Assembly: GCA_009782025.1 (NCBI GenBank)
Contig: WQUQ01000263.1
Span: forward strand, 1-9,946
Length of the DNA: 9,946 bases
Source of the DNA: Desulfobulbus sp.
GTDB lineage: Bacteria; Pseudomonadota; Gammaproteobacteria; Burkholderiales; Rhodocyclaceae
Direction of reading: 5' to 3'
The notes beneath the pieces are model-generated. The model made no database searches, had not been told where the DNA came from, and saw only the letters and a list, made by a program, of their open reading frames with translations. Shown piece after piece: positions 3,580-5,243 of this stretch; position 1 is the stretch's first letter, and each line of letters opens with the position of its first letter. A program made the translations under genes and the position numbers.

Positions 3580-4575
3580 TTACCTGGCCTTGGCGCGTGG
3601 ATGTGTTTTGTCATAGACCTGAGCCAGATGCTGGAAATCCAGATGGGTATACACCTGCGTCGAGGCGATGCTGGCGTGGCCGAGCATTTCCTGCACCGCG
3701 CGCAGGTCGCCGGAGGATTGCAGCAGGTGCGAGGCGCAGGAATGGCGCAGCATGTGCGGATGGACGTGCTGCGGCAAATTCTGGCGCACCGCCCATTCGG
3801 CCAGGCGCAACTGGATGGCGCGATGGCCGAGCCGCTGGCCGCGACGGCTGACGAACAGGGCCGGCTCGTCAGCCGTCGCCAGCGTGTCGCGCCGCGCCGC
3901 CCAGGCGGCCAGCGCCGCGCGCGCCTGCTCGCCGACCGGCGCCAGGCGCGCCTTGGCGCGTTTGCCGATGACGCGGATTTCGCCATCGTGCAGCACAGCA
4001 TCGAGAGCATCGCAATCGAGCGCCGCCAGTTCAGCGAGGCGCAGGCCGGAGGAATAGAACAATTCAAACATCGCCGCATCGCGCGCAGCGAGGGCGTCGT
4101 CTTGCGCAGTCGTCACATCCAGCAGGCGGCTGGCTTCATCCACCCCCAGGGCATCGGGCAGATGGCGCGGCGATTTCGGCGCGCGCACGCCGGCGCAGGG
4201 ATTGGTGCGCACCACGCCGTCGTTTCCCAGCCAAACGAAGAAGCCGCGCCAGGCCGACAACAGCCGCCCCAGCGAGCGCCCGGACAGGCCGCGCGCATGC
4301 AACTGGGCGACGAAGCGGCGGATGTGGTGGCTCTGCAAGCGGGCGAGTTCGGTATCGCCGGCCAGTTCGCACAAACGGCGCAGGTCGCGGCGGTAGTTGG
4401 CAACGGTATGCGGCGACTGCCGACGCTGTTCGGCCAGCGCCGCCAGCCAGGCATCGACCGCCGCCGCCGCCGTGGTGAATCGCCCCAAGCCGGAGCTTGG
4501 GGCTTCTTCGCCACGAGTTGGGTGCGCCTTTGGCGCCAGCAGGAATTGGCTCGCTGGCGCTTGCCCCGTGGTCAC
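3580..4575 (-). CDS. xerC: XerC tyrosine recombinase with a 32-residue N-terminal insertion
   Basis: XerC acts with XerD at dif sites to resolve chromosome dimers at cell division. The 331-residue product has the SAM-like N-terminal DNA-binding domain (about 38-125) and the catalytic domain. All catalytic residues are present: Arg179 (SGLRLAEL), Lys205 (VIGKRAKAR), His274 and Arg277 (HPHMLRH), His300 (LGH) and nucleophile Tyr309 (QVYTHLDF). Spacings match E. coli XerD, and the tail YTHLDFQHLAQVYDKTHPRAK is typically XerC. The start is GTG 4575, overlapping the DUF484 stop as GTGA. E. coli XerC has 298 residues. Residues 4-35 here have no counterpart and coincide with a palindrome-bearing segment flanked by a 7-bp repeat. 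Without it the protein would be 299 residues beginning MTTAAAAVDAWLAAL, in register with E. coli. Because the insert is in frame and the catalytic core is intact, the protein is probably functional. Confidence 0.95.
   Translation of the reverse strand: MTTGQAPASQFLLAPKAHPTRGEEAPSSGLGRFTTAAAAVDAWLAALAEQRRQSPHTVANYRRDLRRLCELAGDTELARLQSHHIRRFVAQLHARGLSGRSLGRLLSAWRGFFVWLGNDGVVRTNPCAGVRAPKSPRHLPDALGVDEASRLLDVTTAQDDALAARDAAMFELFYSSGLRLAELAALDCDALDAVLHDGEIRVIGKRAKARLAPVGEQARAALAAWAARRDTLATADEPALFVSRRGQRLGHRAIQLRLAEWAVRQNLPQHVHPHMLRHSCASHLLQSSGDLRAVQEMLGHASIASTQVYTHLDFQHLAQVYDKTHPRAKAR
4470..4572. mobile_element. Palindromic miniature element inserted in frame near the start of xerC
   Basis: A 7-bp direct repeat, CCGTGGT, occurs at 4470-4476 and 4566-4572, enclosing 89 bases. 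One repeat plus the insert is 96 bases, exactly 32 codons. Inside is a 9-bp perfect hairpin, GCCCCAAGC (4482-4490) / GCTTGGGGC (4495-4503), whose tetraloop on the coding strand is UCCG closed by C-G, the very stable UNCG class. There is also an 8-bp inverted repeat GCGCCAGC (4533-4540) / GCTGGCGC (4553-4560). The insert ends are imperfectly inverted (AAGCGCC at one, AATCGCC at the other). The combination of target-site-like repeat, palindromes and extra residues relative to XerC suggests a REP/MITE-like or RPE-like (Rickettsia palindromic element) insertion. No second copy is present in this window, so mobility is inferred. Confidence 0.55.
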
Positions 4576-5243
4576 AGCACGCTCTTGGCGACTCTCGCCA
4601 GCGCCGCCGACACCAGTTCGCCGAGGCGTTCGAGGTGCAGGGTGCCCATATCGGCGTGGAAGCGCTGTCCTTCCTCGCTGCCCAGGGCGATCAGACCGAT
4701 GGTGCCGCCGCCGTTACGCAGCGCGATCAGCGCCTGCGAGCGGATGTGCGGCGCTTGTTCGCCGAACCAGGAGGCGGTGCCGAAGCCGGCGGTGGAGCCG
4801 CAACAGGGGCGGCTGAGGGTTTCGGCGAAAACTTGCAGTTCTTCGCTGACGCCGGCGAATTCCGGCAGATCCTCGACGCCCTCCGGCTTGTTCCACAGGC
4901 GCAGGGCGACGTGCGGCACGGCAAAATCGTCGCGCAGGTGAAAATGGATCAGGTGAATCACCGCCTGGAAGGTTTCGGCGGCGACCAGGCCGACGGCCAG
5001 GCGATGCACCTTTTCGCCGATGGCGTCGTTTTCCTCGCCGAAGGCGATCAGTTCAGCCAGCTTGGCCTCAACCGAGCGGTTTTTCTCGCGCAGGCTCAGC
5101 ATCTGCCGCTCGGCCAGCGAAATGGCCCGCCCGCCATGCGGATGCGGGAGAAAAATCTGGGCCATCAGATCGGCGTACTGCTCGAAGAAACCGGGATGGT
5201 TCTTCAGGTAATCGGCGACCTCTTCGGGAAACAGCGCGCTCAT
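4572..5243 (-). CDS. DUF484 family protein (GAF-like), xerC operon partner
   Basis: The 223-residue product matches the DUF484 family, which in proteobacteria is typically encoded directly before xerC. Its biochemical role is not established. The N-terminal part (8-53) carries the family signature: a VADYLKNHPGFFEQY helix, LPHPHGGRAISLAERQ (32-47) and LREKN. A short helical, possibly coiled-coil, linker follows, and then a GAF-like domain (about 75-220) ending FHADMGTLHLERLGELVSAAL. There is no signal peptide or membrane segment, so it should be cytoplasmic. ATG 5243 is preceded by GGAG with seven bases of spacing, and a good promoter lies at 5277-5305. Its stop overlaps the xerC GTG by four bases, so the two are translationally coupled. 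In related genomes dapF often stands immediately upstream; here a GNAT gene does. Confidence 0.9.
   Translation of the reverse strand: MSALFPEEVADYLKNHPGFFEQYADLMAQIFLPHPHGGRAISLAERQMLSLREKNRSVEAKLAELIAFGEENDAIGEKVHRLAVGLVAAETFQAVIHLIHFHLRDDFAVPHVALRLWNKPEGVEDLPEFAGVSEELQVFAETLSRPCCGSTAGFGTASWFGEQAPHIRSQALIALRNGGGTIGLIALGSEEGQRFHADMGTLHLERLGELVSAALARVAKSVL

Follow-up and report, generated by a model that had tools for sequence, protein, structure and literature searches.

How did xerC come to carry 32 additional codons close behind its start codon, at a place where that start overlaps the stop of another gene, without either gene being broken? In the window, that is, the whole stretch of 9,946 nucleotides that was analysed (contig WQUQ01000263.1), xerC lies on the minus strand at 3580..4575, begins with GTG at 4575, and forms an open frame of 331 codons including the 32-codon extension; XerC proper corresponds to residues 42-329 (NCBIfam TIGR02224, 348 bits versus a cut-off of 335). 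The upstream gene, which we take to belong to the DUF484 family, occupies 4572..5243 on the same strand, and the xerC start overlaps its stop as GTGA. The additional 96 bp (4475..4570, minus strand), which on the xerC strand begin with CACGG and end with TTCAC, very probably represent a shortened member of an interspersed palindromic family that lies 3' of (T/C)GAC, usually measures whole codons, and here gives XerC a predicted 32-residue extension. These bounds follow from a covariance model, BLAST, and empty sites; the covariance hit, 4475-4574, includes the adjoining TGAC, and the window copy was itself part of the model alignment. Congeners without the element, together with the (T/C)GAC rule, identify this TGAC (4571..4574, minus strand) as the target, made of native host bases within the GTGAC stop/start overlap. 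Because the target holds the TGA (4574-4572) inside GTGAC, neither the stop of the upstream gene nor the start of xerC is lost.

The first-pass annotation had described a miniature palindromic element inside the gene, flanked by a CCGTGGT repeat with a 96-base period and leaving a 299-residue XerC upon its removal. The repeat is present at 4470-4476 and 4566-4572, the hairpin (9 bp, 4482-4490/4495-4503) and the second inverted repeat (8 bp, 4533-4540/4553-4560) were both found, and the 331-residue ORF less 32 codons indeed gives 299 residues. The suggestion that the 7-bp repeat is a duplicated target did not hold, because CACGG is the left end of the whole family and native xerC also has CACGG: read on the xerC strand, the left copy consists of a common AC and the conserved element end, and the right copy of the AC and native xerC (compare GTGACCCCCACGGCGGCGG in L025). 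Sequence comparison places the native CACGG at 4470..4474 (minus strand), and its likeness to the left end of the element is probably due to chance.

Within the insert, all on the minus strand, the right hairpin (4482..4503) has a 9-bp stem with a UCCG loop on the xerC strand and corresponds to the right hairpin that covaries across the family. The insert also holds the conserved core CTCGTGGCGAAGAAG (4503..4517), whose TCGTGG pairs with the CCACGG of the left end, and the middle hairpin GCGCC/GGCGC with its 3-nt loop (4524..4536). The left hairpin is missing; the alignment places the 8-bp inverted repeat (4533..4560), a feature of this copy alone, where that hairpin would stand, and the junction falls at 4556/4557. 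Compared with the common 123-bp form, the window copy is thus 27 bp, or nine codons, shorter. The stretch folds more stably than its shuffled versions, with a z of -2.77 on the xerC strand and -4.12 on the other strand.

The consensus of the family folds into an outer stem, CCACGG/TCGTGG, which carries left, middle, and right hairpins, with a short GAG/CTC stem enclosing the right hairpin; the family has hairpins near both ends, of which the window copy lacks the left one. Standard pairs fill 96.6% of the pair cells, and 15 of the 32 pairs show changes on both sides. Among 500 shuffled controls, none reached four of the five measures and two reached the fifth (further pair types), and pairings slid along the alignment paired in 31-41% of cells.

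A search for the insert in the host genome and relatives, which the first-pass annotation had named as a check, revealed the family in both. With the insert as a DNA query, 16 places were found in its own genome (2.36 Mb, 360 contigs), the insert itself included; the other 15 match at 71-90% over 39-85 bp with E values from 3e-9 to 8e-4, and the insert is therefore beyond chance. The family unit in the alignment measures ~127 bp counting its TGAC. A covariance model built from 31 copies, the window copy included, yielded 27 hits in the own genome. Most full-length copies there are 93-98% identical to one reference copy and three are 81-84% identical, a pattern that we take, from these identities, as a recent spread of one subfamily; the window copy matches the reference only partially, at 74%. 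Under stricter filters, 31 of 76 genomes of the genus, the own included, match the covariance model, 17 at E <1e-10 and 14 weakly, and at least some of the weak matches represent a sister family of ~102 bp. The plain DNA search found the family in 13 of 120 genomes, the own included and all of the same genus, and none in 48 other sampled genera, with at most seven candidates scored per genome. Across the order, the own genome and G158, a genome of another genus with six copies, were the two of 250 evenly drawn genomes that matched at E 1e-4. BLAST of plasmid and phage collections gave no match, no viral contig contained the one exact pattern searched, and in Rfam the window had no hits at the gathering threshold while a full-length copy gave sub-threshold matches only. 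The named best-matching xerC loci include Azonexus and Dechloromonas, and the high-ranking named protein hits are Azonexus, hence our label "Azonexus-like". The literature that we searched, mostly outside subscription journals, revealed no description of the family for Azonexus, Dechloromonas, or Rhodocyclaceae.

Some neighbouring repeats and positions deserve description in their own right. The sister family of ~102-bp elements, AAAGCGTCGAGC...GCAACTCAC, occurs at L178, L256, L260, L261, L262, and L264, apparently at a single orthologous position shared by several congeners, and twice as a tandem pair with a period of 102. A second small palindromic repeat of the own genome has long inverted ends, TTATTCCATTTTTCAATCA..., and is located at L223 (142-250 and 1425-1660), L234, L239, L240, and L241; one copy is empty and several carry the element nested at CCGAC. 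Between clpP-like and clpX-like genes, a copy of the element sits at the same junction in two species (L236 in the own genome and L338 in congener G073).

The insertion sites obey a simple rule. At 33 sites that we chose as independent, leaving out orthologues, nested repeats, and copies with cut or decayed ends (L175, L180, L182, L184, L237, L242, and L255), the four bases before the element are T or C at 33, G at 31, A at 33, and C at 33, so that (T/C)GAC stands directly 5' at 31 sites, the exceptions being L157 and L177. Copies found later, in G073 (L339-L344) and G158 (L350-L355), stand outside this set; the left flanks in G158 are TGAC three times, CGAC, AGAC, and TGAG. The element ends in TCAC at 26 of the 33 sites, and the bases beyond show no pattern repeating the left flank. 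A target-site duplication of more than 2 bp is thereby ruled out, as right flanks do not echo left flanks, and a 2-bp duplication (AC) is indistinguishable from none because the element usually ends in AC. A classical MITE of a DDE transposase would show a target-site duplication at both ends, whereas here the right flank holds no copy of the left flank (the 2-bp AC case aside).

Relatives also supply the xerC locus free of the insert, for which the first-pass annotation had suggested looking: the xerC start is TGAC in 20 of the 29 congeners without the element, 19 of these in a stop/start overlap, and among 57 xerC loci the covariance model finds the element only in that of the window, besides two matches at E 0.4-0.5. 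Empty sites for eight further genes were aligned from 39 fetched stretches, and clean gaps appeared directly after the GAC of the filled copy: the class II aldolase gene (two filled, five empty), a Bro-N protein gene, taken as DinD-like (one filled, two empty), ligA (one and four), the 3-hydroxyacyl-CoA dehydrogenase gene (one and three), a tcdA-like gene (one and four), gshB (one and three), a heptaprenyl diphosphate synthase component I family gene (two filled, one remnant of 45 bp, and two empty), and ispF (one filled, five empty). Only 16 of the 28 empty sites in relatives have the GAC itself, the others, in other species, having GAT, GAG, GAA, AGT, or AAT. The search left out the NtrC-like regulator, the response regulator, and lptB on account of paralogues, and the empty sites of these genes are presumed. 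In the second palindromic repeat of the same genome, the empty copy reads CCGAC-AAAGT and others have the element exactly there. The empty sites show that the bases before the element belong to the host. Together with the family in the host and its relatives and with sister copies in frame elsewhere, the empty site in relatives bears out the earlier view of a miniature palindromic element lying in frame in the gene.

The length from GAC to the right end is 123 or 120 in most copies, 96 at xerC, and 126 in four of the six G158 copies; lengths of 119, 122, 124, and 127 also occur, in copies with no assigned coding frame. Of the 31 aligned copies, 25 are open in frame 0 (Asp-His-Gly...). In mid-gene this frame passes through ligA and the genes for the class II aldolase, 3-hydroxyacyl-CoA dehydrogenase, the Bro-N protein, and a sigma-54 regulator; elsewhere it is joined to the starts of the tcdA-like gene (MTFD^; 302.5 bits versus a cut-off of 304), the response regulator gene (MAD^), gshB, and others. 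Frame 1 (Thr-Thr...) is used by xerC, ispF, lptB, and two more genes starting with ATGAC or GTGAC; it runs into a TGA near the right end in most copies, but the xerC copy has none. By labels that we assigned ourselves, counting L056 and L063 (read up to the element stop as C-terminal extensions) among the others, frame 1 is open with a whole-codon length in five of five assigned copies versus two of 21 others (Fisher p 3e-4, uncorrected for kinship). The openness of frame 0 does not separate the copies that use it (seven of seven) from those that do not (13 of 19; p 0.15).

At three sites, shared by six, three, and two species, all 11 orthologous copies are free of stops in frame 0, and the sole length difference among them is 3 nt. 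The dN/dS of frame 0 was 0.57 versus 0.92 and 0.76 for the other frames in the six-species set, 0.73 versus 0.46 and 0.70 in the three-species set, and 0.19 versus 0.43 and 2.45 in the two-species set, the last resting on eight differences. With dN/dS mixed across the sets, we claim no purifying selection on the peptide.

Side by side with these, further gene-borne copies were observed. Copies at L176, L181, and L229 in the own genome lie at gene ends and apparently add a C-terminal extension of ~39 codons to the upstream protein, stopping at the TGA of the element itself. In G158, which belongs to another genus of the order, two 126-bp copies (L350 and L352) are in frame, in genes that presumably encode TerC-like and YqiA-like proteins. 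In the aldolase gene of G073 (L300), the site that holds the 123-bp insert in the own genome is occupied by an in-frame insert of ~192 bp (64 codons), and the left part of the two inserts differs.

The extension is rare among the homologues listed. Among the 120 of 7983 matches listed for XerC, 117 have 296-301 residues, and the three longer entries are that of the window (331 residues) and two clusters (329 and 323 residues). The N-termini of these two clusters resemble frame-1 peptides, none of 300 shuffles scoring as high, though the margins are narrow (68 versus 66 and 63 versus 59); one of the two is similar to the frame-0 set as well, a set that includes frame-shifted copies. These likenesses suggest that the two clusters derive from an older insertion with later in-frame losses. 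For the aldolase, 118 of the 120 homologues among the matches listed have 209-222 residues and two are longer, with 250 and 275; the 250-residue match is identical to the query over 98% coverage. The AlphaFold2 model of XerC (mean pLDDT 80.6, from 26 sequences) gives block means of 42, 39, and 50 for residues 1-30, without secondary structure, and has its first helix begin at residue 36; confidence is low for residues 301-312 too. The extension is accordingly predicted by the model to be disordered.

Rickettsia is the best-known source of palindromic insertions that keep the reading frame. The Rickettsia palindromic elements (RPEs), as described in two reports, are palindromic sequences of ~150 bp located in frame in unrelated genes (PMC10969869, PMC3733652). 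The present family resembles them in a length of ~100-150 bp, palindromic structure, many copies, and in-frame positions in unrelated genes, and in an open frame, which in the RPEs is reported to yield a conserved peptide. It differs from them in its betaproteobacterial host, in the (T/C)GAC target shown here, and in its frequent landing at stop/start overlaps. NCBIfam includes RPE models, and no RPE-type model appeared in its listings for ten host proteins (up to 25 matches each). Compared by behaviour rather than by alignment of sequences, the element seems to act like the RPEs, which are the closest known elements in this respect; we describe the family as RPE-like with a readable target rule and claim membership neither of RPEs nor of REPs. 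Small mobile sequences of enterobacteria, RU-1 (127 bp), RU-2, and RU-3, are reported to contribute open frames inside annotated genes (PMC2759123); they are similar in size and occur in other hosts, and the likeness is one of description rather than of compared sequences.

IS200/IS605-type elements insert 3' of a fixed short target without duplicating it and have hairpins near both ends. A non-autonomous relative of such elements would share with our family the fixed 4-5 nt target on the 5' side and the lack of a visible duplication (31 of 33 sites; GAC at 16 of 28 empty sites), whereas the own genome, 79% complete, gave no match to a Y1 transposase and no parent element with these ends was found. 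As the sequence shows, the insertion struck the GTGAC at which the upstream TGA overlaps the GTG of xerC. In the proposed course of events, the element would have moved as non-autonomous DNA by a strand-specific route of the IS200/IS605 kind, driven in trans by a putative enzyme. This route is suggested because the target is fixed and 5', no target duplication is seen, and hairpins stand near both ends; from this analogy, we give single-strand transposition of the IS200/IS605 kind a chance a little below even. Copies within genes would persist only where the frame remains open, and XerC presumably still works, because the extension is disordered, by prediction, and lies outside the XerC domains. 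A bolder proposal, which we put forward tentatively and hold to be rather unlikely, is a new mobile element of coding DNA that has a YGAC target, a codon-multiple length, and an open frame, enters essential genes and gene overlaps without breaking them, is moved by an enzyme other than Y1, and supplies disordered segments of ~40 residues.

Whether the insert is translated at all can be questioned. The element might be an untranslated leader, with xerC starting inside or after it and translation being what the hairpins act on, if they act at all: the first codons contain a strong hairpin, an in-frame TTG late in the element offers a possible downstream start, and many N-terminal REPs may be untranslated according to one report (PMC3733652). 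However, an ATGAC or GTGAC overlap matching GTG 4575, upstream of the element, forms the xerC start of 19 of the 29 congeners; the xerC copy falls 27 bp short of its subfamily, keeps the frame, and is free of the frame-1 stop; and in the copies within the ORFs for LigA, the aldolase, and 3-hydroxyacyl-CoA dehydrogenase, translation cannot bypass the element. An untranslated leader is unlikely on this evidence. It is hardly credible that the extension is a clade-specific variable N-terminus produced by tandem duplication or slippage, its likeness to a repeat being a matter of composition. The GCC/CGG-repetitive flanks and the differing lengths of XerC N-termini would accord with it, but the conserved ends, the covarying hairpins, the 15 other BLAST matches in the own genome, and the clean empty sites elsewhere refute it.

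Spread of a REP-type element through the action of a RAYT (Y1) transposase would explain the hairpins, the fixed 5' target, and the lack of a long target duplication, and Y1 matches (PF01797) do occur in five of 12 searched congeners, including the copy-rich G073 and G026, and in 11 of 22 other genomes of the genus. Intragenic REPs, Thauera included, are described in one report (PMC3733652), and the GTAG- and CGTC-tagged REPs of that account are likewise palindromic, both inter- and intragenic, and able to provide a stop (TAG there, TGA here). In contrast, the consensus of 31 copies contains neither GTAG nor CGTC, and the unit measures 120-126 bp with three hairpins, against 20-40 bp for REPs. 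The RAYT gene that the first-pass annotation proposed to look for did not turn up in the own genome (PF01797; genome 79% complete), no copy of the element was found by its model in the 38 fetched loci of 51 Y1 matches in relatives, and in these loci no Y1 gene adjoins a copy. A RAYT/REP origin is thus not supported and, in our view, quite improbable; we retain, as the reading of the xerC insert, a shortened member of the interspersed palindromic family that is predicted to be translated here.

The mode of insertion of the Rickettsia elements is, to our knowledge, not settled. Here the insertion rule can be read because, for a family found in GC-rich betaproteobacteria, many sequenced relatives offer clean empty sites: insertion after (T/C)GAC, no visible target duplication, and usually whole codons. 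The copies provide a natural set of core enzymes (LigA, IspF, GshB, LptB, and XerC) with and without 32-42 extra residues, through which the tolerance of proteins for new segments becomes directly testable. For this genus, annotated N-terminal extensions can be mobile DNA, and, if the tentative reading of an element of coding DNA is true, the genus would keep gaining ready-made disordered segments of ~40 residues.
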